Assembly (NCBI RefSeq): GCF_037392515.1
Contig: NC_090291.1
Span: forward strand, 14,262,501-14,326,500
Direction of reading: 5' to 3'
DNA: 64,000 nt
Source of the DNA: Haliotis asinina
Lineage: Eukaryota > Mollusca > Gastropoda > Lepetellida > Haliotidae
In this document: positions 2,040 through 61,575 of the stretch, piece by piece
How positions within the stretch are numbered: the first letter of the stretch is position 1
Layout of the letters: each line of letters begins with the position of its first letter
Position numbers and translations under genes: made by a program
The notes under the pieces: model-generated
Databases searched by the model: none
What the model saw: the letters and a program-made list of their open reading frames with translations, nothing else
What the model was told of the DNA's origin: nothing

Positions 2040-2250
2040 GGCGTTGTTGTATCGTCTTCTGCAATTACAATGTTATATTTTTTCATGTTAGTTTTATGTT
2101 TATATCTGTGATATTCTAGTATTTTAGAATCGTTGGCAGGTTTTTTATAATGTACATATTTTCCATCTCAATGTTAAATGTTCTCGTCACGATCTGGCTG
2201 AAATATTGCCGATGTGACGTTAATTATTAACTGACTCACTCAACTGGCGT
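2040..2250 (+). repeat. SINE family C, 3' part
   Basis: Contains the family-C middle (TATCTGTGATATTCTAGT) and the tail hairpin CGTCAC...GTGACG at about 2185-2220, followed by ACTGACTCACTCAAC. The 5' module is missing or too diverged to see. Confidence 0.6.
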
Positions 2251-3748: not shown

Positions 3749-4045
3749 GATGGATGGTGTAAATCCAGCTAGGGTCCATGCAGGTAGCAAAGGTACTGTA
3801 AGTGCCTAGTGTGGTGATCTACCTTCAGTTGTTGGCGATCTATTGCCAAGATTTATATTGTGTTGTCCCTTACAGCTAAAGTGTTTCAGATTTATTTACT
3901 AGTTTTACATGTATATCTGTGATATTCTAGTTATTTTACTGTCTGTCCTTCGTTGACAGGATTGCATAATCTAGTCACGATATGGATTAAACATTGTCAA
4001 AGTGACATAAAGTTTAACTCACTCACTCACTCACTCATTCAGGAT
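3749..4045 (+). repeat. SINE family C
   Basis: Begins GGATGGATGGTGTAAATCCA, then GGGTCCATGCAGGTAGCAAA and TGTGGTGATCTACCTTCAGT. It ends with the tail (AGTCACGATATGG ... AAGTGACATAAAG) and CACTCACTCACTCACTC, about 95 bp before the acceptor of lectin exon 2. Confidence 0.75.
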
Positions 4046-8008: not shown

Positions 8009-8202
8009 AGTGAGTGAGTCAGTTCAGGTTTACGCCGCACTCACCAATATTCCAGCTATATGGCGGCGGTCTGTAAATGATCTAGTCTGGACCAGACAAT
8101 CCAGTGACCAACAACATGAGCATCGATCTGCGCAAATAGGAACCGATGACATGTGTCAACCAAGTCAGCGAGCCTGACCATCCGATCCCTGAAACACACA
8201 CA

Positions 8203-9300: not shown

Positions 9301-9354
9301 GACATCTTTACACTGCTTACATAATGGAACATCAACGGACATTTTGTTCATTAA

Positions 9355-9490
9355 TACGTTCACGCCGAAGACCCGGGTTCGATTCCCCAAATGGGTACAG
9401 TGTGTGAAGCCCATTTCCTTGTGTCCCCCGCCTTGATATTGCTGGAATATTGCTAAAAGCGGCGTAAAACTCACTCACTCACTCACTCAT
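9355..9490 (+). repeat. SINE family A (tRNA-like head)
   Basis: The box-B-like GGGTTCGATTCCCC is at about 9375, then AAGCCCATTTCCTTGTG and the tail GATATTGCTGGAATATTGCT, AAAAGCGGCGTAAAAC and (ACTC)n. Confidence 0.85.
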
Positions 9491-9955
9491 TAATACGTAG
9501 TGGCAGTCGTACAACTACACGAACTGTCGACGTCTGCGTCAGCTATTGGTTGAGTGGCTGTGACTTACAATAACAAACATGTGGACCGCTGTCTCTCTGG
9601 TTGCATTTACTTGACAAAACTACGTAGACACCGTCCATTTTAGACAGAAAGGTTTGGAATACAGTAAATCAACTTGAAACTGTCATCCGCTGTGGACTAT
9701 ACTTTCTGTGCAGTCAGAGTGTAGGTTAATGACATCAGATGCTGTTTCGGATGATGGAAAGGCTGTACTTTCTTGAATACACGTATGGTATAAACACGCG
9801 AGAAAAAGTAGCAAACAGCTCAATCAAATCAAAGTCGGTTTCTTGGCTTCTACCACTGTAACCTGAATCCGTTGCGTTTCCCCGCTGAAACGGAAATCGA
9901 AAACGTTCTGTGTACAAAAGGCAACACATCTCGAAAGTGGAGACTCAAGAGTGTA

Positions 9956-10305
9956 CTGAGTGAGTGAGTTTAGTTTTACACCGCACTCAGCAATATTCCA
10001 CCTATATGGCGGCGGTCTGTAAATAATTGAATGTGGACCAGATGATCAACAACATGAACGTCGATGGGAACTGATGACATGTGTCAACCAAGTCAGTGCG
10101 TCTGACCACCCGATCCCGTTAGTCGCCTCTTACGACAAGCATAGTCGCCTTTTATGGCAAGCATGGGTTGCTGAGGGTCTATGCTACAAGTCAGAGAGCC
10201 TGACCACCCGATCCCGTTAGTCGCCTCTTACGACAAGAATAGTCGCCTTTTATGGCAAGCATGGGTTGCTGAAGGCCTATTCTACCCCGGGACCTTCACG
10301 TGTCC
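9956..10305 (-). repeat. SINE family B with internal 98-bp duplication
   Basis: A complete family-B element in reverse orientation. The part with CTGACCACCCGATCCCGTTA and GTCGCCTCTTACGACAAG occurs twice (starting about 10091 and 10189), so this copy is longer than the usual 250 bp. Confidence 0.85.
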
Positions 10306-14097: not shown

Positions 14098-14165
14098 ACT
14101 GAGTGAGTGAGTGAATTAAAATATATCGTCACGCGGGCAACATTTCAGCCATATCGTGACGCGAG
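14098..14165 (-). repeat. SINE family C tail fragment
   Basis: GAGTGAGTGAGTGAATT followed by ATCGTCACGCGGGCAACATT and TCAGCCATATCGTGACGCG, the reversed tail hairpin of family C. Confidence 0.6.
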
Positions 14166-16892: not shown

Positions 16893-18372
16893 CTGCAAGG
16901 AGAAGTGCACATGTGTTATTCGTGCATTATGCATGTACTCAGATTATCAGACTTGTTTCTGTACCATGAATTAACATTGAATCACCTGAGAGTTTTGATG
17001 TTATTATCATGTTATTTATACAAAATCTACATAACAGTTAACAACAAACCCCCGGAAAACGATCTCAGAAGGGTCCACAGTCTCAGCCAAATGCCGTTTC
17101 AGTTTTTACATATTTTCTTTAGATCGCTTGGCCCGTTTGTGTTCGAGCTTGGGATTAACATACGCAAGAATTCACACGGATGCCCACAGAGACATCCATG
17201 ATGACACAGTGACGGAGAAACACACACAAAGAAATGCCCAACAGAGTAGCAACAGGGAAACAACCAGAGAAAGCCCAAGAGAAAACACTCCCTCAGAGAA
17301 AGCCCAAGAGAAAACACTCCCTCAGAGAAAGTCCAACAGAAAACACTCCCTCAGAGAAAGTCCAACAGAAAACACTCCCTCAGAGAAAGGCCAACAGAAA
17401 ACACTCCCTCAGAGAAAGTCCAACAGAAAACACTCCCTCAGAGAAGGACCAACAGAAAACACTCCCTCAGAGAAAGGCCAACAGAAAACACTCCCTCAGA
17501 GAAGGGCCAACAAAAAACACTCCCTCAGAGAAGAGCCAACAGAAAACACTCCCTCAGAGAAGAGCCAACAGAGAGCTATCCATGGAGAAATGCTCATCTA
17601 GAGGCCAAGAGAAAACACTCCCTCAGAGGAGGGCCAAGAGAAAACACTCCCTCAGAGAAATGCCAACAGAGAGCTATCCATGGAGAAATGCTCATCGAGG
17701 GGCCAAGAGAAAACACTCCCTCAGAGGAGGGCCAAGAGAAAACACTCCCTCAGAGAAATGCCAACAGAGAGCTATCCATGGAGAAATGCTCATCGAGAGG
17801 CCAAGAAAAACTCTCCCTCAGAGGAGGGCTAAGAGAAAACACTCCCTCAGAGAAATGCCAACAGAGAGCTATCCATGGAGAAATGCTCATCGAGGGGCAC
17901 CAATTAACACCCAAAGAGACAAACACACGAAGACACATGCACATAGGCACACTCACCCAGAGAAAGGCCTACGTTGATAACCCACGGTCACAGAAAAGCA
18001 GACCCAGAGACATGCCCAAAGAGAAACGCTGATTATCAAAGAACACAGAGACACGAACTCAGAAACGACCAAACAGAAACGACAGCAAGGAAATACCAAC
18101 GGACCAAGACCCAAAGAGAAAGTAAACGTGATACCGTCAGTTCACTGTGTACATAACCTTGCACCTATGCACAGAATGAACTGAAAGATGTCACTACTTC
18201 CTCATCTCATTTGAACTGGTATTTCTGTTTGTTTTCTATCACTGCTTTGCAACAGCAAGTCCGTATGACGGCGTTTAGTGGATAATTGAGCATCATAAGT
18301 ATCGTGGACACAATGACATGCACCAACCATGCCAAAAAGTCTGGCTACCAACAAACCGACACACATACATAC
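16893..18372 (-). other. Galactosyltransferase intron 3
   Basis: About 1.48 kb, phase 2, with a GTATGT donor and TTGCAG acceptor. Roughly half is the 29-bp/98-bp minisatellite at 17257-17905. The rest is AT-rich with no exon seen; 18245-18345 may be a decayed family-B SINE piece. Confidence 0.85.
17257..17905. repeat. 29-bp minisatellite passing into a 98-bp higher-order repeat
   Basis: From about 17257 to 17572, roughly ten units of 29 bp each carry CACTCCCTCAGAGAAAG (at 17286, 17315, 17344 and so on). From 17573 the array becomes a 98-bp repeat that adds GCTATCCATGGAGAAATGCT to two 29-bp units, starting at 17573, 17671, 17769 and 17866 (the last interval is 97 bp). All three forward frames are open across much of it because neither 29 nor 98 is a multiple of three. 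Confidence 0.95.
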
Positions 18373-18560
18373 TTATATCCATATTTAGCACTGGCAGTAG
18401 AAAGATGGAGCGGATTTTCTCGACAGCGGTAGTAGTTGTTGCTAGTCTCTGGGATGAGATCAACATCGTGGATGACGATGCAGGTGAAGTTATCCGCCTT
18501 CAGCGCGGCTGCAACTCCCGCGTTGATCATAAGACCTCGATTGAATATTCCTCCCGGCGT
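18373..18560 (-). CDS. Beta-1,4-galactosyltransferase, exon 3
   Basis: A 188-bp exon: TPGGIFNRGLMINAGVAAAL, KADNFTCIVIHDVDLIPETS, then NNYYRCRENPLHLSTASAKY. It carries the DVD metal/UDP-binding motif (DVDLIP), the conserved IFNR start and the YRC...P.HLS segment of GT7 enzymes. The acceptor has a long pyrimidine tract ending TTTTTACAG. The donor is TATAA|GTATGT. Entry is phase 0 from exon 2 and exit is phase 2 into exon 4 (AA+G gives Lys). As I recall it, the length equals the matching human B4GALT1 exon. Confidence 0.95.
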
Positions 18561-20682
18561 CTGTAAAAAGAAAAAAAAACAAGATATGGGGCAAACAAGG
18601 TACCAGTGAGCAAAACGCTTACATCACAATACGCATAAGTTGCCCGATGCTTAATTTCCCTTGCCCATATCATGGGATCGTCGTTAAATATGCATATCCT
18701 TGGGTATAACATACAAATGCAACAAAAGGCAAATAAGCAAACACACTCACAAAATCTAAAGGCGACACAATGTGCAAGTTCCGATACGATCCATGTATAG
18801 ATATGGATCTAGCATTGGATCTAACAACAGTAGTTTAATTCAGACGAAATTCAGAAATATGGGTAATGGTCTTTAAAACCAAAATGCATATCCTGGGTAT
18901 GTTTGGATCCATAACTACAGGATTCTGGCCTTTATACCGTTTTGTGGTCCAGGACTAGTAGGGTTCTGGACTGACTTCATTACTGGATTACAGAAAGAGT
19001 TGGTCGCGTGTTTGGAGTATGAAACACCACTGACATGTGTAAGCGAGAGTGTAGGTCTAACCAGGACGACACATTTAAAATAGTTAATCTCCTTGTAATA
19101 CTAGCAATCGTATTTCGGGAAATAAAATTTATATTTAAAATATATTTAATATATATGTATATCGGGGCAAGTCTTAGGTGGCTTCATAATGTATGGTTGA
19201 ACTATGCAGTTAACTACTACCTTGGCAGTGTTCATGTAGGTGGGGTCAGTATTTTACAGCTGACCTTGTTTTGTTGACGTTCATCAGCTGATGATGATAG
19301 TGATTTACGAGAGCCAATTTCATGATATTGCCATAACTATTTTCAATTCAGTAACTCTCTGTTCGACTGGAAACGTAGTTATGCGACATACTGAAATCGG
19401 GAAATGAAAGACTGTTGGTCTTTTTGTATCCACCTTGACGGGGTCACCCACTGCTGTCAATATTTATAGACGCTTTGAAGGTTTTCCGCGTAAAATATAA
19501 TTCGAAAGTGCCTGTCAACATATACACCAACTTCTATGCGTGTACTGAACAGCTGAGTAGTTAATGCAAATTGACAATTGGCTGTCTGAGGTACGACCAG
19601 GTGATACTGGCGGCATACATTTTGTTGCCAGTAATAGTATTTAGAATAATCTAAACATAAAACATAATCAGGAACCTGACTATGTAGTTATTCATTAGCC
19701 ATTGTTACAGGTTCACATATTATGCTGGGTCAAACCTGATCTTTCGCAACTCATGTTGTCGTAAGGTGGTCGTTCTCACTTACTTGTTTCATGTATGTCA
19801 TCGTATCCTACTTGTGATGAGCGATGCTCATAGTGTCATGACCAAGTTATGTTTATCTGTTTCATGTATATCATTTAGATATTACCAAAATTGAAGCCTG
19901 CATTTTCACGAACGTTACAGTAGAAGCAATGTGTCCATGAGAATGTTACACATGAATATATTTGAGTTGTCCATAAAACCAGTCACTTAATCTTTTGTAT
20001 TTAAAGCAATACGTTTCTGTCGTAATAGATCGAATATTACTCTGTGGTGAAGTTGCAAATATATTGAGACTGAATCGTTTCTGAGGAACTTCTTCAACTT
20101 CATATATGTGCATGTGTACAGTGTACAGAAAGCTGCAGCTGCAAGAACTTGAACGTGTGTACTTCAGCATTTGAAACTGGACTTGCAACATGAGACTGAC
20201 TAACATGTCAGCTGGGAATATACGATGACGGTTAGGAACAAACGACACGAACTGATCTGAAGGAAATTGTTGCTTGCAGTAAGATTCCATGGCTGACTCA
20301 TCATTCGTTGATTAGCAATTGACCTTTGACCAGATCAAAATATGTTTGTGATAAGCATATATGTAATTACAGTGTCAACACATTTAAACAATGATTAGAG
20401 CATTCCAGAACTACTAAATTGGTCAATCCAAATCAGAGTTATTGAATTAAACCATTCATTGATCGGTTGAAATATTAACACAACTGAAACATAATGTTGA
20501 ACCTTTAAAGTGCCCCTGCAGGGTAGTCACGCGCGGTAGCTGATGACAACCGGCTTTAAATCAAAGGTAAATCATTTCTGTTTCTGAAGCATCACAACTC
20601 ATTCGGTCGCCTGACCTTCACCACATTTTCACCATTTTCGGGTCTAGCTTCTGGACCACACATGCTCATCTGTATTATTTAC
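18561..20682 (-). other. Galactosyltransferase intron 2
   Basis: About 2.1 kb, phase 0, from GTAAAT to TTACAG. It contains only short or unconvincing open frames, including a 114-codon minus-strand frame at 19946-20290 that resembles no known domain. No mobile element was recognised. Confidence 0.75.
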
Positions 20683-20912
20683 CTGTTCTGCAACGAATAT
20701 CGTGAAATCCGCCTGTTGTTTTTTGAGGAAAGGGATGAGATTGTTGAGTAGGATCCCCAGATGTTGCTCCCGATCTCTATAAGGTATGACAACAGCCAGC
20801 CTCACCCTGGATCGACATCCCTTGGGCCTGTATATGTCACCGGATTGGGAGGGGTACTTCTTCCGTAACTCATCTAGGGTGATGTTGGTAAGATTCAGCT
20901 TCACGGGTTCAT
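20683..20912 (-). CDS. Beta-1,4-galactosyltransferase, exon 2
   Basis: A 230-bp exon encoding EPVKLNLTNITLDELRKKYP, then GDIYRPKGCRSRVRLAVVIP, YRDREQHLGILLNNLIPFLK and KQQADFTIFVAEQ. It corresponds to the N-terminal part of the catalytic domain: the conserved G..Y.P..C followed by the UDP-sugar-binding AVVIPYRDRE.HL (the family's IPFRxR motif). The acceptor is CCCTTTTAAG and the donor is CAG|GTAAAT. Entry is phase 1, joining exon 1 through an Asn codon, and exit is phase 0. The luminal NLT and NIT are possible N-glycosylation sites. Confidence 0.95.
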
Positions 20913-20944
20913 CTTAAAAGGGGGATAAAATAGTGAAGTAAGAT

Positions 20945-21717: not shown

Positions 21718-24700
21718 TTATCTAAATACATCAGAATCTCTTATTTTCCCAACATTATATAAAAATAGGCATAAGTTTTTTATAACATCTATATTTTTTG
21801 AAGTCATAATGTTTATAAAACTGTGTTGTGATATAGGGTGTTTCAAGTATTTATCCAGAATTTTTTTTCTTATGTCTAGGTAGGCTTTACAATAAAGTAA
21901 AACATGTATTTCATCTTCAATTACATACAAATTCATTTGATAGCAAAAGTGACAGAATCTTGAATCATAAGGGATATTGTTGTATCTGCCAGTCTCAGAA
22001 CAAAGTTTATATTTGCCGCATCTAAATTTTGTTAAAGAATTTCACAAATATGGGGCAATATCTATAGAGTGATAGGATTCGACATTCAAGGTGGACTTAA
22101 AGAGTATATAATTAGAACACTTGGTTGTATTATGTAGCGATGAGAACCAGTCTTGTGAAAGATTATCAGATAGTCTTTGTTTAAAAACAGACATGAAGAC
22201 ATCAATATTACCAATATCCTGTGCAATCCAGACAAAGCCAAACCCATGTCTATATAATATATTCTTGATATGAGACACCCAAGTCGTTCGTCCAGATTCA
22301 TCTAGTGACTTTAGCATTAAATAACACTGGTGGGGCAACCTACAACTTGGGAGAGTTAAAAGTCTACACCAATATTTAACTGCCCTTGACATATAAGTAA
22401 GCTGAAGAGGGAATCTGCCACATTCACCTAGTGCCATGTTGTTGCAAGTATTTTTACCAACTTTTAAGAAATATTTACATGTTTTTATCTGTATTTGTTC
22501 GATGATTTTACAGTGGGTAACACCCCAAATTTCTGAACCGTAGCAGAGAATCGGTTTTACCATAGCATCAAATATTCTAAAAAGATCTGCACATGACAGA
22601 AAACCTACACGTTTTTGGAATCTAAAGATAGCCATAACGGCTTTATTGGCTTGTGACGCAAGAGTAGTGTGAGCTTTAGTCCACGCTAACCTAGGAGTAA
22701 ACACGATACCCAAATACCTGTAGTATGAAACAACTTCCATCTTTTGCCCAAAAAGAAACCACTTTTCATACTGTCTAAGGGGCCCACTATTTCTGAACAC
22801 AATAACCTTAGTCTTATCAATATTGACCTTCATACCAGTGACTCGACAAAAATTCTCAAGGCCATGAATCTTCTTCTGTAGCTGGAATGCTGTATCTGAG
22901 ACTGAGGAAACATCGTCCGCAAACATTAGAGCATATAGGTTATTAACGTTAGGTGAAATAAATACACCACGGCCGCCAAATTGCTCCATACTTTGCATGA
23001 GCTGATTAATGAAGATAATAAACAGTTGGGGACTGAGGATGCAGCCCTGCCTAGTACCTGTACTACAATCAAAATAGCTTGACAGACCTTTAGATGTTCT
23101 AACACAGGCTGACAACCTATCATACATTGATACCAAGATGTTATAGAATTTACCACCCACACCAACTCTTTTCAGACTTGACAGCAGAATTTTGTGATTA
23201 ACTGTATCAAAGGCCTTAGAGAAATCAATAAACAGACAGTAGAACCTTCCTTTTTTCTTCACTGAGTATTTCTGAACCATAGCTTGAAGTGACAAAATGT
23301 GGTCAGTGGTAGAATAAATGCTCCTAAATCCTAAATCCTAAATAATATTCTTCTCCTCACACCAAACCTGTAATCTACTGTTAAGAATGGAAGTGAATAT
23401 TTTACACACTGAATCAATAAGAGAAATACCTCTGTAATTATTAGGGATACTTTTGCCACCAGATTTATAAAAAGGACAAATAATGCTTCTGCACCAGTGC
23501 ACAGGAAAAATACTTTCCTGGAAAATCTTATTAAACAGCACTGTTAAGTAATTACTGATAAATGTCTTAGAAGCTTTAATGAAGTCAATTGCAATACCAT
23601 CTGGTCCAGGGGACTTGTTTTTTGCCAGTTTATCAATGTGAAATAAGACTTCATTTTCGGTAATGTCACAGTTTAATGTTACAAGCTCTTCATCCTTGTA
23701 GACCTCTGAATTGATATCTCTGTCATGCACATTACCAGAACACTCAGAAAGAAGCCTTGAAAAGTGATTGTACCAGTTTTCACAACTTATATCGTATGTT
23801 TTGTCAGATGTTGATATTGAACCTGATTGCTTTAGTGTTCTCCAGAATTCTCTTGGGTTGTTTCTTGCTGCCATAAGTTTTTCTTTTTGAATATCAAAGT
23901 AAGCTGTTCGTTTGTAGTTGAAAGTCTTCTTGAATGATTTACGTAGGGTTTTATAAATCAATATATCTAGGTTATTATCTCTATGGTCTCTCAGTGCTTT
24001 ATATTTCAAATGTTTTAATTGTTCAAGTTCTTCATCCCACCATGGGGGCTGAGGTTTGGAATTAATGTCATGGAAACCTGGAAATACCTTCCTATTGTGT
24101 TCTGCAGCTCTTTGGTACAGCTAAGTAAAAACATTTAATGAATCTTCAATATTAATGTCTATATAGTGATATAATTCTCTACATAGTTTTCCATACAGAC
24201 TTTGGAACTTAGAGATAAACATATCACAGAGCTCTTCATTCCACACGTATTTGATCCATACTGTTGTTGAATTACTCTCTATGCAATTGCTAGTTGGAGG
24301 ATCTGTTACTACAGGTGACTCGAGCACACCAGTAATGTTGGGTGGCTGGATATTCAGAGAACAGTAAATAGGAAAATGATCAGACACATCACATGTACCA
24401 ACACCAAAATTAGCAACTCTAGGAAACACAGATGTTGATGCAATCATGTAGTCTACTAGACTAGAACCATTATGTGTAACACAAGTAAACTGTCCTTGTT
24501 TATCCTCATACAGTCTACCATTCATGATATGGATTCCAAATGTACAGCACAGTTCCATCAGTTTTTTACCACAGTTGTTATGATGTATGTTGTCTTTACT
24601 TGATCTGGACATTTCAAAATCATCTGAGGGATAATCATCAACATCTCTTACAATAAAATCAATATTATCGTTAGGAATGAAGTCTAAAAAGTCTTTAGTC

Positions 24701-25206
24701 CTAGCATTTAGGTCACCAGCTAGAAATAGTTGTTTGTCCGGGTGATCAGCAACTATAATATCCAAGTAATGTTCAAGCATGGCAATTCCATCACTGTCAC
24801 TAGCATCATACACTGGAGAGCCCTCTGGCGAGATATAAGTAAATATGAGCAGAGTGTCTTTATCCCAATGCAAGCACTTAGTTCAGAAAAGTAAAACAAC
24901 AATGTTTTGAAAATGATCATAAAGTCTTGTAATTATATCATCCTGTAGCCATTTCTCCTTTATCAACACGGTGACTCCGCCACTGTGGCGGCCTAACTGT
25001 TTCATTTTATCTCTCACAGCGTTGACTGCTCGAAAACCGGACAAAAAGGCGGAAAATTCGTTATGAGCCTTCACAAATGATTCACAAAAACATACTATAT
25101 CGAAATTATGACACAAAGGTTTCACCTGGGAATATTCATTGTCATGTTTATGTAGACCGCCGATATTCCACGTCAGAATGTTGAAAATAAGGCCATGGCC
25201 ATCGCA
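21718..25206 (-). pseudogene. LINE ORF2: APE endonuclease, reverse transcriptase, CCHC end
   Basis: ORF2 nicks the target and copies the element RNA. In order along the frame: FNILTWNIGG and FDIVCFCES open the APE endonuclease. FLAGDLNAR, SSLVDYMIAS and SDHFPIYC are its catalytic motifs (to about 24300). RT follows with KNKSPGPDG, NNYRGISLIDSVCKIFTSIL, LFIDFSKAFDTVNH, GTRQGCILSPQLF, the active site LMFADDV and YYRYLGIVF. The end has FCHFC...EDEIHVLLYC and stops at TAA 21718-21720. Four in-frame stops break it: TGA 24883-24885, TAG 24121-24123, TAG 23338-23340 and TGA 22042-22044. No frameshift occurs over about 3.5 kb, so this is a recent inactivation. Catalytic residues appear intact. Confidence 0.92.
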
Positions 25207-26334
25207 TCATTCGTCGGTTTGTTTATCTTCCGACTGGGTCCGTCCTTCACCTTCCTTGTCTATTTCATTTCCGGGTCCAAACAAACTGGCCCACGTGGTT
25301 GTGTTATTGTTTGAGTATGGCGGTTCTTTGTGCGATCCTTTCTCTTTCACGATGTTTTGGGAATTCCTATCATACACAAACACTTGACCATTTACAATAA
25401 GCTTATTTTGCCTCATCTTCGGGTTGTTTCCTGCATTCCTTGCCTTCACAAACCAAGGTGAAAGTGCTCGTCTGTCCTCTCGTATTTTCTGGGGGAAGTC
25501 CTCTGTCACACGCTTGTGTTGTGATCCCTCAGTCCTGTCCGCACGTGCTGCCTTGAAGATGTCGCTCTTATCTTTAGATGTCAAAAATTTCGCAATGATT
25601 GGAGAACCTGGCTTCCGCTGATTTAGCCGATGTGCTCGTATTATCACCATCTCGTAGGCGTTGCCCATATGTAAATCTTCAGATAGAAACTGACGCACCT
25701 TAAGCTTACACTCCGATTGTTCCCACGTCTCGCCTTTATCGCCGGGAATCCCATGGAAAATTAGATTTTCTCTTCGGTTCCTAGATTCGAAGTCAGTAAT
25801 CTTATCTTCCATCGCTGATAGTTTTGACTTTAGCTCTTTGTTTTCTTGTTGTAGATGATGTTGTTGGCTGCTAAAATATGTCGCCATCTTGTCGACCTTG
25901 TCACTGAGGTTTACAAAGTTTTTGTTCATAGATTTGATATCAGTTTTCATTTCAAGGAGTATGGTCAATATATCAGTTCCGTCCTTTTCACTCACGTTTA
26001 TGCCAAGTGCACCCGATTCGTCCACAGCCAGGGTTTGTTGTCGTGTAGTGGGTCCAGGGTTTGACTCGACATCGCCACATGTGATAAGTAGGACACTCAT
26101 CAGACAAATTAAACGCACTCCTAGCGAGAGGTAACACCTCTCAAGTTTTAGTCCATGCATACTTAGGCCTTTTATCTTGTTTGGTTGGCAAAATGTGCCT
26201 ATTTTGGCTCTGTATTGGGCTAAAGAAATGCCCATTTTTCGGAGCTCGTAACTGACACGTCCACACACGAGCTCACGCATGCGCAAGTATGTGCAAAAGT
26301 ATAATAATACATAAATACATAAATGTGCGATCAA
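25207..26334 (-). CDS. LINE ORF1: 2A-like leader, coiled coil, L1-type RNA-binding domain
   Basis: An intact frame of about 375 codons. The first 86 residues include a hydrophobic run (LSLGVRLICLMSVLLI, about 69-84). GDVESNPGP (residues 87-95) is a 2A-like ribosome-skipping motif. A coiled-coil-like heptad region (about 125-185, including HHLQQENKELKSKLSAMEDK) leads into SRNRRENLIFHGIPG and the RRM-like part with IIRAHRLNQRKPGSPIIAKF. EDFPQKIREDRRAL is typical of L1-type ORF1 C-terminal domains. The product would bind element RNA in RNPs. An internal start at Met 34 (MGISLAQYRAK) is also possible. ORF1 ends at TGA 25207-25209, directly in frame with ORF2. Confidence 0.88.
   Translation of the reverse strand: MIAHLCIYVLLYFCTYLRMRELVCGRVSYELRKMGISLAQYRAKIGTFCQPNKIKGLSMHGLKLERCYLSLGVRLICLMSVLLITCGDVESNPGPTTRQQTLAVDESGALGINVSEKDGTDILTILLEMKTDIKSMNKNFVNLSDKVDKMATYFSSQQHHLQQENKELKSKLSAMEDKITDFESRNRRENLIFHGIPGDKGETWEQSECKLKVRQFLSEDLHMGNAYEMVIIRAHRLNQRKPGSPIIAKFLTSKDKSDIFKAARADRTEGSQHKRVTEDFPQKIREDRRALSPWFVKARNAGNNPKMRQNKLIVNGQVFVYDRNSQNIVKEKGSHKEPPYSNNNTTTWASLFGPGNEIDKEGEGRTQSEDKQTDE
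26050..26076 (-). other. 2A-like ribosome-skipping motif in LINE ORF1
   Basis: Encodes GDVESNPGP, matching the D-V/I-E-x-N-P-G-P consensus, with the skip expected between the last Gly and Pro. It would separate a hydrophobic leader of about 94 residues from the RNA-binding ORF1 protein. 2A-like sequences have been described in ORF1 of several APE-type LINEs. Activity here is inferred from the motif only. Confidence 0.85.
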
Positions 26335-26487
26335 ATAATGTTTAGTAAAACACTGAAACCATATAACATGTCCACACTTTGGCTAGTTCCTGACAAAGGA
26401 TAGTGCATACTTCAGCATGCAAAATTAACAAAAATTAACACATTTTTTTTTATAAAACGGAATTTTTTAACTACCTCACTAATGTTT

Positions 26488-28541: not shown

Positions 28542-29160
28542 GTTGAGTCGAGATAACTCGCCTGGGTCCGGCTGATAACGTCTCCCAAGTTCAAGATGAC
28601 CTCATTCAACAGTGCATGTTGTGAGCCAGGACGGTCACTGCTTGATCATGTATTCAGGACTTCCTGTTGGTGAAGAAAATACACGTGTTATGTTAGACCT
28701 CTGGCTTGTATATTTAGACAATAACTAACGAATAACGGGGAGTGACTGATTAATTAATGTTAATTACGTAATTGTCGAGCATTGACGTTTAAAACGAGGG
28801 GAAAATAATCTGTCATACCCCAAACTAGTTTTCGATATAATAAAAGGCAAACTGAAAACAGCTTTTTTTTTGTCTTTAAAGAAACAAGCGATGTGGAGAC
28901 AATTCATAACGCTACGCGTTGATTGACTGTTATATTTCTGAAACAGCGAGACAACGTCCATCAAAAAGTGTACCCTCACTAGAGACATTTCCAAATATAT
29001 AAAAGTTAAATCTAGAAAATTAAAAGCAATCATGGTGCGTATGTGCGTTACAGACATGACACAAATTGTCCTAAATTCCTGTCATCATTAGTCACATCAT
29101 GTGCGTACTGCTTTACTTAACCCCTTCATCTAAATAATCAGTTATCATTGGAAGTTGAAT
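28542..29160 (-). other. 5' flank of the galactosyltransferase
   Basis: Sequence upstream of the start codon. The 120 bases nearest the ATG are less AT-rich. No TATA box could be placed with confidence. Confidence 0.4.
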
Positions 29161-29164
29161 TAAC

Positions 29165-29670
29165 AACCAAGATTGTTAGTGGCTGTATCCTCGAAGGGGT
29201 TAAAGTACCGTAAAATTATTGTCCCCCTGAGAGGGTATGTAAGTCCCAAAACAGTTGAAGTCAGATTTAATCTTCCACATTTTTAGTCGTAGGATATGTG
29301 TCATTTCAAATTGTGGCTAATTTTGCATACAGTCGCCAGCAGCTTAGGGGATGGTGTAAATCTAGCTAGGGACCATGCAGGTAGCAGAAGTACTGTAAGT
29401 CCCCATGGCCCCTGGTATGGTGATCTACCTTCAGTTGTTGGTGATCTATATGGCCTGTTTTCATATTGTATTGTCTGAATAGGGATATTAGTTTTAACTT
29501 TTCACGCTAGTTTTATTTCTTATTGTGTTATTCTAGTTGTTTTACTGTTCTTCGTCGACAGGTTTTTTATCATATAAATAGATTACTTTTTCCAAGAATG
29601 CTTTCGTCACGATATGGCTGCAATACTGTCGATGTGACGTTAAATATTAACTCATTCACTCACTCAATAA
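29165..29670 (+). repeat. SINE family C, full-length long form
   Basis: The most complete copy. The 5' module (GAAGGGGTTAAAGTACCGT, GTCCCCCTGAGAGGGTATGT, AAGTCCCAAAAC) is followed by the body GGGGATGGTGTAAATCTAGC, CCATGCAGGTAGCAGAAGTA and GGTATGGTGATCTACCTTCA. Then come CTTCGTCGACAGG and the tail hairpin with arms CGTCAC (29605-29610) and GTGACG (29634-29639), and finally ACTCATTCACTCACTC. Confidence 0.85.
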
Positions 29671-29994
29671 TCACTAAATAATCAGTAAACAATATATACT
29701 GAACAGCGAAGGAAAAGCGATTACGGAAAGAATAACATTTCATGAAAGTCAGCGTTCGTTTATGTATTCTATTTAAAATGGTGACAATAAACAAGAGTAG
29801 CGTTTATTTTGTTATTCCGTATATATAATCATTGTTATTCTGGGTCGCGTGCTTTCGTCCTTTGCGCATTAAAAATGTAGATCTTTGATGTTTGTAAAGA
29901 GATATAGTTCTAACTTATCTCGCTGAAGAGGGCTATCGTTTTGAGCAATCTGAACTCATGCTCAACGTTTCTCAGGTGTTGACATTGTAAAGTG

Positions 29995-30243
29995 ACTGAG
30001 CGAGTGAGTTTAGTTTTACGCCGCACTCAGCAATATTCCAGCTATGTGGCGGCGGTCTCTACATAATCGAGTCTGGACCAGACAATCCAGTGATCAACAG
30101 CATGAGCATCGATCTGCGCAATTGGGAACCGATGACATGTGTCAACCAAGTCAGCGAGTCTGACCACCCGATCCCGTTAGTCGACTTTTACGAAAAGCAT
30201 GGGTTGCTGAAGGCCTATTCTATCCCGGGACCTTCACGGGTCG
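29995..30243 (-). repeat. SINE family B
   Basis: A well preserved reversed copy: GAGTGAGTTTAGTTTTACGC, hairpin arms at 30019-30024 and 30049-30054, CTGGACCAGACAATCCAGTG, CAACCAAGTCAGCGAGTCTG and CTATCCCGGGACCTTCACGG. Confidence 0.9.
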
Positions 30244-30519
30244 ACATTGTAAAGCATACAAATCGGTGTACTGAAAAAAACCCGAAGAGCTGCTATCTCG
30301 ATTCATCTTGTTAGAGTATTTAAGTCTGCAAGACAAAATTAACCAGTCTCGTTTTCGCGACTACAAACACTAACACCCGAATACGTATAATGTCCCACAA
30401 CTTAGATGCTTGATAGGCATTCAGAAGTGGTTAGGATAAAAAGAAGACACTTGATATGGCTGTGCAACATCTTTATTATTTACCCACCACGTTTCTGGGT
30501 TAATACTTGCTACTTAATT

Positions 30520-34514: not shown

Positions 34515-35453
34515 TTGTGATCTCCTATAAAATCTTGTGCTAATTTACCAGTGCTGGCACATGCCAACTGTGATATGGTTCGAAATTTGCTAACTTACCA
34601 CTCCTGGCATGTGTTCACTGTGATTTCATATGGCATTTGCTAACTTACAAGTGTTAGCATGTGTCCAGTGTTATCTAACATGACATCATGTGCTAATGTA
34701 CCAGCAGTAACAACACATTGTGATCTCATAAGACATTTGCTAACTTACCAGTGTGTTCTCTGTGATCTCATGACATTTGCTAACTGACCAGTGCTGACAT
34801 GTGTCCACTGTTACCTAATATATCATCATAAGCTAACTCACCAGCAATAACATGTTCATTGTGATCTCATATGACATCATGTGCTAACTTACCAGTGTTG
34901 ACATGTGTCCTCTGTGATCTCATGTGACATCATGTGCTAACTTACCAGTGTTGACATGTGTCCTTTGTGATCTCATGTGACATCATGTGCTAACTTACCA
35001 GTGTTGGCATGTGTCCTTTGTGATCTCATATGACATCATGTGCTAACTTACCAGTGTTGACATGTGTCCTCTGTGATCTCATGTGACATCATGTGCTAAC
35101 TTACCAGTGTTGACATGTGTCCTTTGTGATCTCATATGACATCATGTGCTAACTTACCAGTGTTGACATGTGTCCTTTGTGATCTCATATGACATCATGT
35201 GCTAACTTACCAGTGTTGACATGTGTCCTCTGTGATCTCATGTGACATCATGTGCTAACTTACCAGTGTTGACATGTGTCCTTTGTGATCTCATGTGACA
35301 TCATGTGCTAACTTACCAGTGTTGGCATGTGTCCTTTGTGATCTCATGTGACATCATGTGCTAACTTACCAGTGTTGACATGTGTCCTTTGTGATCTCAT
35401 GTGACATCATGTGCTAACTTACCAGTGTTGACATGTGTCCTTTGTGATCTCAT
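34515..35453. repeat. 53-bp satellite array
   Basis: A regular array from 34862 of 11 near-identical 53-bp units (TGATCTCATGTGACATCATG, TGCTAACTTACCAGTGTTGA, CATGTGTCCTTTG). It is preceded by about 350 bp of diverged and gapped units. Three variable sites (GTG/ATG, GAC/GGC, TTT/TCT) show that units 1-3 and 7-9 are identical as blocks. Each unit carries CTGGTAAGTTAG on the minus strand. Confidence 0.97.
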
Positions 35454-36268
35454 GTGACATTCCAATGCTTCAAAAATGTGTTTAGAAGCTTCTTGCCACA
35501 GGGCAGGTGACAACAGGAAAGTTGCTTGTCCTGACTTATTTTCCACTTGCCTTTATTTTATGACAATGTTTGGAGTTAATGTTTACTGGGCTATTTATCG
35601 AAGAGTGATAAATTTCAAAGAAGGATATTTCTACTTTATTATTAATGCGAAATTTCATAGCTAAACTATCAGCAGATACGACATGAAATCCAAGTTTATT
35701 TGCATTTTGAAACCGTGAGTAGAAATTATATAGTAGCCCACAGACAAGTAAGATGCCAACATTTGATTGTTAAAAGTGAAACTGATTTGTCCCAGGCATC
35801 AGGTGACTGGACTTTTTAACTTCTGCATCATGTGCTAAGTTACCAGTGCTGACATGTCTTTATTGTGGTCTCGCATGTGCGAACTGAAAACGGGTAGCTT
35901 CGGAACTGCTTTGCCTGGTCAAGTATATGTACATTAGTACAGTACTGCATTAATAAGACTAATATATGAACGACAACTTCTTTTTATTGTCTAACACGAC
36001 GTTTCTGGGCTATTTCTGGAGCCTTCATCACCATCATCATCATCATCAATAAAAATAGGTTGTCATCCATACACACGTCTTATTATATTCACCAACTTCT
36101 AAACGCCTCTCAAGAATCTACAATATTGCAGCTGATTACAAAATACATGCTTGATATGAAATACAATAGCTTCAGTATGGCTGAACATTGCTCAATAAAA
36201 CACTTCCTTATCACAGTGATTACCTACCATATGCCGATTTCACACATATACGAGGTTATTGAAACTCA
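35454..36268. other. AT-rich intergenic DNA
   Basis: A lone satellite-like phrase recurs at about 35826 (CATCATGTGCTAAGTTACCA). A short (CAT)n tract lies at 36028-36048. No gene was seen. Confidence 0.4.
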
Positions 36269-36670: not shown

Positions 36671-36910
36671 AGGAGTTAGTGAGTGAGTTTAGTTTACGCA
36701 CTTAGCAATATTCCAGCTATATGGCGTCAGTCTATTAATCATCAAGTCTAGACCAGACAATCCAGTGATTAACGGCATGAGCATCAATTTGCTCAATTGG
36801 GAACCGATGATGTGTCAACCATGTCAGCGAGCCTGACCACCCAACCCCGTTAGACGCCGTTAGACAAGCATAGTCGCCTTTTATAGCAAACATGGGTTGT
36901 TGGAGGCCTA
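36671..36910 (-). repeat. SINE family B
   Basis: GAGTGAGTTTAGTTTACGCA, CTAGACCAGACAATCCAGTG, TCAGCGAGCCTGACCACCCA and the reversed head. Confidence 0.8.
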
Positions 36911-39897: not shown

Positions 39898-40115
39898 GGT
39901 GAGTTTAGTTTTACGCCGCTTTTAGCAACATTCCAGCAATATTACGGCGGGTGGCATCAGAAATGGGCTTCATACATTTTACCCATGCATGAGGAGAATC
40001 GAATATGGTCTCCCCCAGATTAAGGCCAGAACACAAAATCAGCCATCTAGTTGGGCCACCCGGTGCTTGATCATGTCTCTGGGGTGTGGGTTCAAATCCC
40101 GGATGGGAATCCACC
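39898..40115 (-). repeat. SINE family A, plus a second tRNA-like piece
   Basis: GTGAGTTTAGTTTTACGCCG, CTTTTAGCAACATTCCAGCA, ATATTACGGCGGGTGGCATC and ATGGGCTTCATACATT are family A reversed. At 40077-40110 a separate box-B-like GTGGGTTCAAATCCCGG lies on the plus strand. Confidence 0.7.
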
Positions 40116-41300: not shown

Positions 41301-41434
41301 GTTTTTGTAAAAGATTGTTATAATTGAATAACATAGGAGGACGTGCAGTTACTGTGGACTCATCAAGTCACTTCTCGATATTCTAGCCTCACATTTACCT
41401 AGTTGCATAATACTATAGTATGGTTAACATTAAG

Positions 41435-42500
41435 AGTGAGTGAGTGAGTGAGTTTAGATTCAAAGTCACATCGGCTATATTTCAGCCATATCGTGACTAA
41501 AACTAGTTCTATGTCATAAGGTAGACATATATTTTATAAAATATTGTCAACCAAGGACACTAGAGTATCACAGATTGAGTTAAAACTAGCTAGCAGACAT
41601 CTTAAAAACTGAGAAAAATCATTTTGGACAAAACAATGTTAAAATGAGTTACTTATCGCCAACAGCTGAGGATAGATCACCACACCAGAGTCCAATGAAA
41701 TTTCTATCGTTTGAGCTGTGTGAATTAGATAGAAATTGATTTCTCTTCTTGGACAAACCAGATAAAAGGGGAGGTAATGCATGGTCTAGAGGGCGCTGTC
41801 AGATATGTCAGATGTGACGTCATAGGGAGGTAAGTTCATTCTCGGCAGCGACGACCAGTACTGAACATACTGATTTGTTACATTTGAAATAAGCGTTTTG
41901 TTTATTGAGATGGTGCAAGCAGGGCTTTATATAAATATTACCAAAATCGAGATGTGAACACTGCTGCAGTATTGTCATACCTACCTCCTAGGATGAAAAG
42001 ATGTTACAGTAGCATCTGATATTTTACACTGATAATATGATTACTTTTACTTTTAGATGCAAACGTAGAAGCTGCCTTGCAGAAAAGCCGTGGAGTTTAA
42101 TGTGATTGACAGCTTGTAAGCTTGGAACAAGTCGAGGAGTTCTAGGCTTATATCATCACTGATGTCATGTGTTGTACCATGTACAACTGTAATAAACGCC
42201 TCGGTTAGTGTCGCAGGGGACTTACAAAGATGTTTGTTCTTTCATCTGGTTTGTGGTGGTGGCGGAAGGAGACTAGGGATTGACAGTGCCTTTGCTACCT
42301 GCATGGTTGGATTTACACCATCTACTCAGCCACTGCCTGTTGTAGGACAATCTAGCCGAAAATTAAAATAACAAATACGCTACAGTTAAAAATTTGGCAT
42401 GTTTGAATTTTTCCTTGAAAGTTTTGGGGTCTTACGTACCCTCTCAGGGGGACAATAATCTTACAGTACTTTAACCCCCTTTGAAGGTACGGCCACAGAC
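41435..42500 (-). repeat. SINE family C split by a 520-bp insertion
   Basis: Tail and body occupy 41435-41691 (TGAGTGAGTTTAGATTC, CCATATCGTGACTAAAAC, GATAGATCACCACACCAGA). The remainder resumes at about 42215 (AGGGGACTTACA, TTTGCTACCTGCATGGTTGG, ATTTACACCATC) and runs to the 5' module at 42425-42500 (TTACGTACCCTCTCAGGGGG). About 520 bp of foreign sequence lies between. Confidence 0.75.
41692..42214. mobile_element. Insertion inside the family-C SINE, unidentified
   Basis: Interrupts the SINE between GGTCC-equivalent sequence and GGGGACTTACA. It contains TGACGTCAT (a CRE-type palindrome) at 41815-41823 and AATAAA near 42193. No long open frame, terminal repeats or clear target duplication were found. 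Confidence 0.5.
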
Positions 42501-42770
42501 AACCAAAGTTACTAATCAAAACTACCAGTCATATTAAAACACATCTATCTACAGAATATATTTATCAAATTTCAGTAGTTACATCAATTTATTTTAAAAA
42601 AACCCCAAGAATTAAGTGATAATTAACAGTATTAAAAAGATCCTTAACAGAGTTAACATTAAGAAGCTGAATAAACTTAAACATTGTTTAAACATTATAA
42701 TAATATGGTTTAATATACATTCTTCTATAAGCACCATGTTATGTACTTTTTAATATAAAACGCAACTTAT

Positions 42771-42858
42771 CTCCAGGATCATATTTGCACAAAAAACAAA
42801 AACGCTGATCATGCTAATCGTAAATGTTTTTTTTGTGCAAATATGACCCTGGAGAGAC
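42771..42858. mobile_element. Near-perfect hairpin, possible MITE
   Basis: TCTCCAGGATCATATTTGCA CAAAAAAC at the left is matched in reverse complement by the right arm (GTTTTTTTTGTGCAAATATG ACCCTGGAGA), with about 30 bp between. The stem is about 28 bp with one or two mismatches. Confidence 0.75.
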
Positions 42859-43069
42859 AGCTAAATTATGGGAGCTGAGTCGGAGGTTTGATCAATCCTT
42901 CCTACAGAGATAAGCAAAAGATTCATGCAAATAATACCGAAGCAAGTATTGACTGATAACAAATTCATAAATTACACATTTCCACGAGTTTGACAACTGA
43001 CTAAACATAATATGCCTAGCCTGATCATTTATTCCTTGCTCAATAACAGCTGACATGAGATATTGCTTG

Positions 43070-43225
43070 AAGGCGGCCAGGTAGCCCAGTGGTCAAAGCG
43101 TTCTCTCATCACGGGTTGGATTCCTCACACAGGCAAAATGCGTGAATCCCATTTGGTGTACCCGTTGTGATATGGCTGGAATGTTGCTTAGAGGGGAGTA
43201 AAACCCAGCTCACTCACTCTATTGC
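43070..43225 (+). repeat. SINE family A
   Basis: AGGTAGCCCAGTGGTCAAAG, CGTTCTCTCATCACGGGTTG, GATTCCTCACAC, then GTGATATGGCTGGAATGTTG and CTCACTCACTC. Confidence 0.75.
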
Positions 43226-45654: not shown

Positions 45655-46018
45655 GGAGAGACGATATCATATAGAGAACCGAAGATAGACGTCATCATAC
45701 AGAGAGCTGGAGAGGCAAGAGCATACAGAGGCGTGGAGAGACGTGGATAGGGAAATGGACAGACGTGATCATACAGAGAACTGGAGAGACAGGATCATAC
45801 AGAGAACAGGAGAGATGTGATCATACAGAGAGTTGGAGAGACGTGATCACAGTAAACTGGACAGACGTGATCAATACAGGGAACTGGACAGACGTGATCA
45901 TACAGAGAACTGGAGAGACAGGATCATACAGCGAACAGGACAGACGGGATCAGACAAAGAACTGGCGAGATGGGACATACAGAGACCCGAAAAGAGATGT
46001 GATCACACAGAGAGCTAG
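45655..46018. repeat. About 25-bp minisatellite
   Basis: Repeats of GATCATACAGAGAACTGGAG AGACG-type units (for example starting at 45767, 45793 and 45819), with substitutions and length variants. The frames at 45765-46022 are products of the repeat. Confidence 0.9.
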
Positions 46019-52000: not shown

Positions 52001-52689
52001 CGCCATGCATTCGCCCTCGTTATAACAGTTCTGTGTGTACTGTTATAACGATGAATGCATACTTATTAGTAATTTAAACTGTGAAACAAAAATACTCAAA
52101 TGTAATCCTATACCGTCGAGAATGTGGGACACGTCTAGATTACCCCAGTCCTAAAATATGTTCATTTCAGACACCAGGTGTTTTCGTATTGTCGACAAAA
52201 CGGGCCGGATCGTTCCTGCCATCTGACCATAGTCGGGGTAGGTCTGTGCGTGTATGCGGGTCGATGCAATGAGTCAGTGTGAATTGGATAATATTCCTGT
52301 CTGCAGAAAGGCGATATTAAAAATTGCCATGCGTTCGTGAGTTTGATATGGAGACTTATCATGTGTCCGAGTTAAATATTAAACGAAACCTTATACAGAA
52401 TCTTCATGTGTTTGAAACGAATTACTCGTAATATCGGTATTTTGGTGTATATTGTGGCTTGTCTAAACTGTATTCCCGTTCACCGATGTCGAATGTGTCG
52501 AACATGATTAAAATTAAGGGTAACTTACCACAGAGTGTTTCTCGCGACATTTTGGTAAACCATTCCTCCTTATCATATTACATCCCTTAGTTCCAATGGT
52601 ATCAAACCCAAGACGAAAAGAAACCGGCCAGTCTATCTCTGATGACGGTGAGCATTAAACTGAAACTTTTTGTCTCCATGACGTACACA

Positions 52690-53780
52690 CGGGCTTGCGA
52701 CGCTGCGGAATGAGCTGATGATATTCAGCGTCACCAGAAACACCAGTCTGATTCATGTCTGGAAGCACGACGCAATGTGTTTGGTGACATGCACATTTGA
52801 ACAACTGGGAGCGTTCCCAAAATCCCGATACCAAAGCCCAAGGCATAATACTGATCCCTCAAGTTATCGTCATATATCAATAACTAGCTGTGTTTGTAAA
52901 ACCATGGAACGCATGGTTAACAGTCGATCAACCTGGTTCTTGGAGACCAACAATCTCTTGTTTGACCTTCAGTGTGGTTTCCGAAAAAGTTACCACTGAC
53001 CTCCTGGTGCATCTAGAATTATTGACGTTAACTCCAGTGTTAACAAAGAACGTACTGTATATATAATTTGACTTAGAAAAGGCACATGCTGCAACGTGGA
53101 AACAAGGTATATGAAAAGATTTGTGTGAATTTGGATTGAGGGGCAGATTATCTTAGTTCATAACTCAGGCTTTATGCAACAGATCCGATTATTTTATCCA
53201 CGATCAGGGCGATGTGCTCAAGGCAGCACCCTGTCTGTCACACTTGCATCAAAATTAACAGCCTCACTAACGTTTTGAACAGTTGTGTTGATGCGTCCCC
53301 TTTCATGGATGTTTTCGATATTTTATTCCGTGATAAGAATATGCACACAATAGACAGGCAGCTACAACTCTGTGTCAACAAAATTTGAAAACAAATTTGT
53401 CAATGAAAAGGTTTTCAAAATCAGAAACAATTTGCTTTCACTTTTTGTATCCTCTACACAAAGATCCAGGGGCCCGTTTCAGAAAGCTCTCGTAACCTTA
53501 AGATAGCGTACGTTTCCTCGTAGCATCTGCACCTCCTATGCTGTAGCATTGGAGGTACCAATGTTACGAGAAAAGTTTCCAGATCTTAAACCTGCGAAAG
53601 CTTTGTGAAACGGGTCCCTAACCTACCTTTAGATGATACTCCTACCAAGGTGGTAGATGTGGCCAAATACCTGGGACTAATTCTTAGCCGTCACTTGATA
53701 TTCTTACCAGACATAAGATCAAAAGCAATTAGAAAAATATAGTTTCTTTCTACAAAGTAAGCTTTAGGCTTTATGGACCC
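52690..53780 (+). pseudogene. Jockey-like LINE reverse transcriptase relic, split by a MITE
   Basis: SSYRHISITSCVCKTMERMV and ETNNLLFDLQCGFRKS (52850-52995) match the Jockey-type YRPIxLTSxLCKxxERMV...QxGFRK region. IIFDLEKAHAATW and FGLRGRL follow with frame changes. The usual Y-x-D-D box has become SPFMDVFDILF, so catalysis is lost. After an inserted palindrome (53469-53618) the same protein continues as NLPLDDTPTKVVDVAKYLGL and ILSRHLIFLPDIRSKAIRK. It has many stops and frameshifts, so it is much older than the 21-26 kb LINE. Confidence 0.8.
53469..53618. mobile_element. GGGGCCCGTTTC palindromic MITE-like insertion
   Basis: Left GGGGCCCGTTTCAGAAAGCT CTCGTAAC; right CTGCGAAAGCTTTGTGAAAC GGGTCCC. 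The termini are inverted repeats of about 28 bp with mismatches. An inner inverted pair (CTCGTAGCAT / CAATGTTACGAG) adds to the fold. It interrupts the RT relic precisely enough that the protein resumes after it. Confidence 0.75.
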
Positions 53781-59113: not shown

Positions 59114-59267
59114 CCGACTTCTAAAGGTTAAGCATCTGGTGGTCCTGAAAGATGCATTCATGATTAAGCGTCAATCAGGTTGAAATAATCACTTCAATGA
59201 ACATCTGTAAATCTTGGCGAAGCATTTGAACAAGCTCGGTGCTGAAGACCATCGGTTATTATGAATA

Positions 59268-59450
59268 TGAATGAGTGAGTGAGTGAGTGAGTGAGTATTT
59301 AACGTCACGTCGGCAATATTGCAGCCATATCGTGACGAGAACGATTAATTACAAAAATACAAATGAATTAATAGCACATACATTGAAATGAATTAATAGC
59401 ACATACATTGTAAAAACCTGTCAACGAAGGACAGTAAAACTAACTTGAAT
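59268..59450 (-). repeat. SINE family C, tail and body
   Basis: GAGTGAGTGAGTGAGTGAGT, AACGTCACGTCGGCAATATT, GCAGCCATATCGTGACGAGA (arms 59303-59308 and 59332-59337), then AACCTGTCAACGAAGGACAG. A 30-bp direct repeat (TGAATTAATAGCACATACAT) lies inside. Confidence 0.8.
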
Positions 59451-60747: not shown

Positions 60748-60960
60748 GCTTGAGTGAGTTTAGTTTTATGCCGCTTTTAGCAATATTCCACCAATGCCAC
60801 GACGGTGGACAGCAGAAATGACCTTCGCACATTGTATCTATTTGGTACTTTAAAATGTAACTCACACACGCATTCTTTTACCCATGTGCGAATCGAACCT
60901 GGGGCTTTGACGAGAGCCCTTTGACATAATGAGCGAACGCTTTAACCACTAGGCTAACCC
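60748..60960 (-). repeat. SINE family A
   Basis: GAGTGAGTTTAGTTTTATGC, CGCTTTTAGCAATATTCCAC, GTGCGAATCGAACCTGGGGC, GAGCGAACGCTTTAACCACT: nearly full length, with a small insertion. Confidence 0.8.
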
Positions 60961-61264: not shown

Positions 61265-61575
61265 ATGCGTGAACATTTAATGTCACATCAGCAATAATTC
61301 AGCTATATCGTGACTACAACAAAACAGTCTTACAATAATACATTGATAAATTTAGACAATAAAAGCTTTTTCACAACTGGCAACAACAACAACCATAACT
61401 AGAGTAGTTTAAATAAATATCTGTATATCTGTCTGTATAACTAACAGGTATCCCTAAATTAATTAATAATTTTATAATTATGTTTCTATTGAAAACGATG
61501 CAACACAAAATGAGATATAGATCGCCGGCAACTGATAGAAGGACCCAGCAACTGATAGAAGGATCAAGGGCTATT
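61265..61575 (-). repeat. SINE family C
   Basis: TTTAATGTCACATCAGCAAT, AATTCAGCTATATCGTGACT, then the reversed body (AGATCGCCGGCAACTGATAG). The ACTC tail is missing. A short direct repeat (CAGCAACTGATAGAAGGA) lies at the far end. Confidence 0.65.

Follow-up and report, generated by a model that had tools for sequence, protein, structure and literature searches.

A 3' tail hairpin common to an RNase H-type LINE and two SINE families in Haliotis asinina

We found that one hairpin, followed by a short (ACTC)n repeat, terminates both a LINE and two SINE families of different bodies, A and B, in a 64,000-nucleotide stretch of Haliotis asinina DNA (hereafter the window). Core and ACTC tail are common to the SINEs and the LINE of this one genome, and the stem differs between them by compensated changes. 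The hairpin together with (ACTC)n most probably serves this LINE, which has the order APE-RT-RNase H (I-superfamily type), as a 3' recognition tail, and the LINE or a close sibling most probably copies SINEs A and B in trans. SINEs borrowing the copying enzyme of a LINE most simply account for the common hairpin.

The tail hairpin and its copies

In A, B and C, the three families distinguished at the outset, a stem-loop precedes a short tandem repeat. The tail runs, 5' to 3', from a 6-bp outer stem through a GATAT or CATAT internal-loop side, an inner helix and the core GCTGNAATATTGC to the 3' internal-loop side, the outer stem, CGTAAAAC or CGTTAAAT, and (ACTC)n. The outer helix of 6 bp and an inner helix of 4 bp thus enclose GCTGNAATATTGC. 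All three family consensuses adopt a hairpin of this kind (C, -13.5; B, -15.9; A, -11.8 kcal/mol), with only 2 of the 4 inner pairs appearing in the minimum-energy fold of A; in several decayed copies, the minimum-energy fold departs from the hairpin.

An earlier note on this DNA had described different bodies with one common tail hairpin, and this description is borne out. Its stem positions are all correct: CGTCAC/GTGACG lies at 29605-29610/29634-29639 and 59303-59308/59332-59337 in family C, and CGCCGC/GCGGCG at 30019-30024/30049-30054 in family B. For family A, CGCCG/CGGCG is present at 56087-56091/56118-56122, but the note omitted that the closing pair of this outer stem is a U-G wobble and that the inner helix contains one U-U mismatch. 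The copies in the window are as follows.

29144..29665, plus strand: 5'-truncated LINE 3' end (C29617), with UTR 29144-29604, hairpin 29605-29639 and ACTC tail; homology starts at 29144
29605..29639, plus strand: hairpin of C29617, outer stem CGTCAC/GTGACG, inner helix TGGC/GTCG (family consensus GCCG), loop TGCAATACT
29130-29142 (left) and 29674-29686 (right): target-site duplication CTAAATAATCAGT of C29617, at most 2 bases from the homology breakpoint
29993..30242, minus strand: SINE B copy B30030, hairpin 30019-30054 with CGCCGC/GCGGCG
30243-30254 and 29981-29992: duplication CTTTACAATGTC of B30030
56059..56152, minus strand: 5'-truncated SINE A copy A56098, hairpin 56086-56123
56153-56166 and 56045-56058: duplication TCCTTATCCACTGC of A56098
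9360..9486, plus strand: 5'-truncated SINE A copy A9441, directly downstream of a C-LINE UTR fragment (8950-9301)
9348-9359 and 9487-9498: duplication TCATTAATACGT of A9441
59266..59361, minus strand: strongly 5'-truncated C-LINE 3' end, hairpin 59302-59338
41436..42651, minus strand: C-LINE copy C41474, with the final ORF2 codons (..KDLFNTVNYHLILGVFLK*), a 3' UTR interrupted by about 580 bp of other DNA, and hairpin 41463-41499
42652-42664 and 41423-41435: 13-bp duplication TCTTAATGTTAAC of C41474
43070..43222, plus strand: SINE A copy A43175, lying within another LINE's ORF2 remnant; its A and B boxes look tRNA-like by eye
2184..2220, plus strand: C hairpin; UTR homology starts at 2072
3972..4008, plus strand: C hairpin; body begins at 3752; duplication TCATTCAGGATGGA
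14126..14162, minus strand: C hairpin, by covariance model
61280..61316, minus strand: C hairpin, by covariance model
8032..8069, minus strand: SINE B hairpin, by covariance model
9978..10015, minus strand: SINE B hairpin, by covariance model
36697..36730, minus strand: decayed SINE B hairpin, by covariance model
39913..39950, minus strand: SINE A hairpin, by covariance model
60768..60805, minus strand: SINE A hairpin, by covariance model
52682..53150, plus strand: LINE RT fragment containing CVCKTMERMVNSR, resembling the C-LINE ORF2 (CVCKTMERMINNR), with RVT_1 below the curated cut-off; no plus-strand hairpin was found within 3 kb after it

At up to 2 mismatches, the 64-kb window contains 31 matches to the core GCTGGAATATTGC, compared with a mean of 1.26 and a maximum of 5 in 100 dinucleotide shuffles of the window. 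At E<0.01, a covariance model picked out 29 hairpins of the window, including 22 that belonged to its training set. No Rfam family reached its gathering score for the hairpin; two weaker matches lay elsewhere. Genome-wide counts were made in the window's own assembly (1,143,192,487 bases, or 1.14 Gb, in 159 contigs). There, exact copies number 12,272 (6,162 + 6,110) for the A/B tail pattern, in which 21 bases are fixed, and 3,227 (1,599 + 1,628) for the C tail pattern; the reversed-pattern controls gave 0 for A/B and 0 for C.

Complete SINE A copies (loci L022 and L035) total about 170-180 bp, are flanked by target-site duplications and have a tRNA-like head, the A box TAGCCTAGTGG and B box GGTTCGATTCC at their 5' ends being assigned by eye against a tRNA promoter consensus. 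SINE B is a separate repeat, 250 bp long in copy B30030, with box-like stretches by eye at its 5' end; ARAGORN reported no tRNA gene in the window. The fetched loci and the window together yielded 147 distinct tails, and the 117 with a recognisable ACTC repeat were tested for duplications. Of these 117 copies, 20 (13 of 43 SINE and 7 of 74 LINE copies) have a duplication of 11 bp or longer where the tail ends, compared with 0 SINE and 1 LINE copies when flanks of other elements were used, a few pairs being skipped in this control. The duplications of C29617, B30030, A9441 and A56098 are 12-14 bp long and each lie at most 2 bases from the homology breakpoints; a chance match of at least 13 bases is found in 1.2% of random flank pairs in this window.

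Other features were observed in the window. A Tc1/mariner-type transposase lies at 14912-16033 (minus strand), with HTH_Tnp_Tc3_2 and DDE_3 in 14912-15706 and an apparently interrupted frame. Tandem arrays are present at 34538-35882 (53-bp unit, 13 overlapping register copies listed, a 50-bp variant at the start), at 17207-17898 (plus strand; 29-bp unit, open in three plus frames with repeats such as NTPSEK, and an interleaved 98-bp higher-order unit) and at 45675-46019 (plus strand; 26-bp repeats with a 115-codon open frame). A PAN domain exon (Pfam) is located at 5100-5354 (plus strand), and a frame at 320-727 (plus strand) resembles an F5/8-type lectin domain by eye. Two exon-like frames at 18348-20913 (minus strand) resemble beta-1,4-galactosyltransferase by eye.

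Family C is the 3' end of a LINE

The earlier note took A, B and C for three SINE families. This did not hold for C, which is a LINE 3' end, so the SINEs are A and B. In a young copy spanning the contiguous loci L105 and L081, an uninterrupted ORF2 of 1,237 aa carries APE, RVT_1 (1.2e-37) and RNase H (2e-10; Pfam) within a single frame. It is followed by a stop, a 477-nt 3' UTR that is the C body, the hairpin and (ACTC)n. A search of the assembly with the C body, in which 40 of 8,220 first-look candidates were scored and 30 loci taken, gave young C copies with a long ORF situated behind the C body. For the ORF2 C-terminus, the assembly gave 16,953 first-look candidates, and 150 of them were scored. 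The UTR of C29617 is likewise found behind ORF2 in other copies.

We also sampled 30 C-tail and 30 A/B-tail loci, in each case the first places, all on contig 1. ORF2 homology lies upstream of 29 of the 30 C tails, all 30 of which match the UTR. By contrast, it precedes 0 of the 30 A/B tails, where a B body was found in 18, an A body in 8 and neither in 4. The fetched loci gave 64 distinct 3' ends of ORF2; the C tail had served to choose 30 of the source loci and the UTR another 29. The hairpin comes next in 56 of these ends (54 with CGTCAC, 1 with CGTTAC and 1 with TGTCAC), and the A/B stem follows none of the 64. Four of the 8 ends lacking the hairpin run off the available sequence. The hairpin is present in 3 of the 6 ends that were selected by neither tail nor UTR and have enough sequence. 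Thus, the search of LINE 3' UTRs for the same hairpin plus ACTC tail, which the earlier note had proposed, did yield such a LINE. Reading C as a third SINE could draw on the window copies, upstream of which no long open ORF2 was seen; ORF2 homology before 29 of 30 sampled C tails, once as an open frame of 1,237 aa, refutes it and leaves it virtually no probability.

CR1-clade LINEs are not known to carry RNase H in ORF2; the C-LINE has RNase H, which we take as the marker placing it with I-superfamily LINEs and not with CR1. Its ORF2 relatives, judged from 120 of 4,336 listed, are 48-66% identical, many of them 1,220-1,250 aa long, and include a Patella caerulea protein and proteins from lucinid-clam symbiont assemblies. 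The gastropod I-superfamily LINEs Ingi and Nimbus (PMC11203168) are, like the C-LINE, non-LTR elements with the ORF2 order APE-RT-RNase H; the passages of that paper on them mention no tail or hairpin, and the clade of the C-LINE is assigned here by domains.

Two further elements of the window were considered as the partner of C and rejected. An ORF2 remnant at 43794-42652 looked continuous with the C body, but genomic copies disagree: they place the start of the ORF2 end that belongs to the C-LINE at 42651, at the 13-bp duplication, so the remnant upstream of it is another LINE. The other candidate, a LINE at 21.7-26.4 kb (minus strand), was discarded because it ends in a CTGT repeat and has no hairpin. 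Three elements are nested at 42652-43794 (minus strand), namely the ORF2 remnant, SINE A (43070-43222) inside it and the C-LINE copy interrupting that remnant. The remnant matches the same protein family as the LINE at 21721-26382 (minus strand), which is of another type, with interrupted APE and RT frames, terminal CTGT repeats and, in its ORF1, the sequence GDVESNPGP, which we take to be a 2A-like motif.

Stem differences between and within families

Differences between families were scored by alignment column. Between B and C, the bases differ in 6 of the 20 paired columns and in 3 of the 17 unpaired ones, and the six form exactly three compensated pairs. Two of these (columns 5/36 and 7/34) are in the outer stem and one (14/28) in the inner helix, which reads AGC/GCT in B vs GGC/GCC in C. 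The placement of these differences gives P of about 0.003 in a post hoc test, helices and families having been chosen after data inspection. The two outer-stem compensations on which the earlier note relied are real. It had missed the third. With only four or five independent stem versions, the covariation is weaker than it implied.

A fourth version of the hairpin stem is found in mussel SINEs. Scanning bacterial contigs with a first pattern gave no match, and a second pattern matched 14 contigs, two of which come from Bathymodiolus gill-symbiont assemblies with host-like DNA; the other 12 were unrelated by eye. Viral contigs searched for the hairpin gave nothing usable. When the two Bathymodiolus assemblies were searched with the model and 150 candidates scored per assembly, 11 hairpins had E <=0.001. 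A V-type SINE has the stem CGCCAT/GTGGCG (GTGGAG in one copy) and an AAATC-like tail, and a second element has CGCCA/TGGCG and an ACTC tail. The V-type stem carries A-U at 7/34 as in C and C-G at 5/36 as in A/B. Locus L002 combines a tRNA-like head with a V-like segment, judged by eye without a reference V domain; that the host-like contigs are mussel DNA and the segment a V domain are our readings. L002, L006 and other loci of these assemblies (G001 and G002) are mussel-like host DNA within gill-symbiont assemblies, with SINEs and, in G002, 21 LINE RT matches. Twelve of these 21 were taken as mussel LINE loci (L107-L118), and none has a hairpin reaching E 0.5; contig L130 has a partial hairpin match at E 0.54. 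Exact copies of the mussel stem type number only 8 in the window's genome.

Comparing C with V (a two-copy consensus, ties resolved to L002) gave two compensated pairs among 5 differing paired columns, with a placement P of 0.046. The same test was not significant for A/C (0.08), B/V (0.16) and A/V (0.31), and A/B showed no two-sided change. Random-substitution tests gave P <=0.018 for every family pair. When only transitions were allowed, simple pair retention gave P of 0.087 for B/C, 0.22 for B/V and 0.11 for C/V; all three B/C compensations are transitions. The stem is more variable than the unpaired part in 4 of 6 family comparisons: besides B/C, these are A/C (8/20 paired vs 3/17 unpaired columns), A/V (4/20 vs 2/17) and C/V (5/20 vs 1/16). 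The exceptions are A/B (3/20 vs 3/18) and B/V (3/20 vs 5/17). A kept loop with a free stem is thus a tendency.

Covariation was measured on 25 tails, 22 from the window and 3 from mussel-like DNA, with the structure derived from the same sequences. Across them, 84.0% of cells pair vs 79.4 in shuffles, cells with two-sided changes number 21 vs 8.1, and the covariation score is 0.317 vs 0.232; none of 500 shuffles reached any of these values. Two of the five covariation measures are not above shuffles, namely pairs with two-sided change (146/500) and pair types (344/500). Slid controls were all lower in cells paired (best 61.8%), two-sided cells (best 10) and covariation score, whereas the control slid by +1 exceeds the named structure in two-sided pairs (5 vs 4) and pair types (15 vs 14). 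RNAalifold gave a weak consensus of 6 pairs (-1.58 kcal/mol).

Within families, one-sided changes in the 22 window copies comprise 27 breaking a pair and 17 keeping it, and two-sided changes 3 paired and 4 broken. Family consensuses are paired throughout, except for the U-U of A. The earlier note had also suggested a genome-wide covariation check; within LINE C at pair 5/36 (TA 3,227, CA 41, TG 54, CG 1), there is none, CG being found once vs 0.69 expected under independence. These counts indicate that inserted copies decay freely at this pair, and that compensation appears between source families.

A recognition tail and its alternatives

Most likely, to judge from sequence, the hairpin is where the ORF2 protein binds as reverse transcription begins, a site that A and B would have borrowed. 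In binding it, the protein would rely on the conserved core GCTGNAATATTGC and, in the stem, on shape more than on letters. Alignment of the ACTC repeat with the nicked target would come next, setting up target-primed reverse transcription. The C-LINE or a close sibling would copy in trans both SINE A and SINE B, whose bodies differ and whose tails are versions of the LINE's. The hairpin may in this way be an entry site for reverse transcriptase, with a LINE subfamily putatively paired to its SINEs. A near-constant core with compensated stem letters fits the two-part recognition described for zebrafish L2 LINEs, in which a stem swap was tolerated and a loop swap was not (PMC4176376).

The sharing of tails between SINEs and LINEs is already published, molluscs included, and the present case is a well-resolved further example. 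A survey counts 58 SINEs whose tail is common to a partner LINE, mostly of the CR1 and RTE clades (PMC3747384 section 1.4). For the L1 and SINE tails of maize and sorghum, it describes a hairpin whose stem mutations compensate each other and whose loop nucleotides are conserved (section 4.3). As here, a LINE and a SINE carry one 3' hairpin with a compensated stem and conserved loop nucleotides; there, the LINE is of the plant L1 clade and the sequence is another. In eel UnaL2/UnaSINE1 and zebrafish ZfL2, a terminal stem-loop with an internal loop also precedes a short tandem repeat (PMC5135761 section 11; PMC4176376). These are L2-clade LINEs, UnaL2 having a GGAUA loop and TGTAA repeats; specific reading of the loop and more general reading of the stem were tested by experiment there and are suggested here by sequence. 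Bivalve Vhc SINE 3' ends are reported to be homologous to the 3' end of a CR1-clade LINE in Crassostrea, and 3' stem-loops are predicted for mollusc SINEs (Matetovici et al. 2016, via PMC5135761 section 11). Both 3'-end homology and stem-loops recur here, and the mussel V-type SINE carries the window's hairpin; the Matetovici pairs, compared through the summary in PMC5135761, involve CR1-clade LINEs, whereas the present ORF2 has RNase H. A full-text search with six 13-14-base forms of the core returned one unrelated paper. This hairpin, tied to an RNase H-type LINE, was not met in the literature searched, the main mollusc SINE papers lying outside its reach, and no absence is claimed.

Alternative explanations concern the owner of the A/B tail and the origin of the likeness. 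A LINE carrying the A/B stem was not encountered (0/30, a small sample on one contig), so the partner of A and B could be a different element. They might be served by a sibling subfamily of LINEs in which the stem is CGCCG, the C-LINE then being only a cousin. The stem and 3' flank CGTAAAACTAAACTC common to A/B tails are absent from all sampled LINE ends, the A/B stem joined to the LINE flank TTAAATATTAACTC has 0 exact copies genome-wide, and the compensated stem versions of the SINEs were not seen on sampled LINEs. Yet no such sibling turned up in 30 A/B-tail loci or 64 LINE 3' ends, in samples that are limited and include 30 LINE loci chosen by their C tails; we consider this alternative possible, if rather unlikely.

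Less probable still is that the tails descend from one LINE tail and that stem differences are neutral drift, with no selection on structure. Such drift is favoured by the four or five independent stem versions, the exclusively transitional B/C compensations and the mainly one-sided changes within families. It is opposed by the full compensation of all three B/C stem differences, and one-sided decay is expected of dead copies, while the family consensuses remain paired except at A's U-U. Independent (CACTC)n microsatellites of chance similarity, the case against itself that the earlier note named, would suit the ACTC arrays common in the window; with 12,272 exact copies of a 21-fixed-base pattern vs 0 reversed, a fixed anatomy and target-site duplications, its probability is negligible, and the copy counts refute it.

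Recognition of the tail by the C-LINE or a close sibling, our preferred reading, may extend beyond this genome. We tentatively suggest, while regarding it as doubtful, that one RNase H LINE lineage has kept a single hairpin code, core conserved and stem free, since before the gastropod-bivalve split, that several SINE families of different bodies adopted it in both groups, and that core plus stem shape would be the whole entry ticket. The owner of this genome's very common ACTC-tailed hairpin is now evident. A single core set on four or more stem versions, in a LINE as well as in SINEs, provides a natural experiment, and the rule shown for zebrafish L2 LINEs (a loop that is read, a stem that matters mainly by its shape) becomes directly testable in an RNase H-type LINE.
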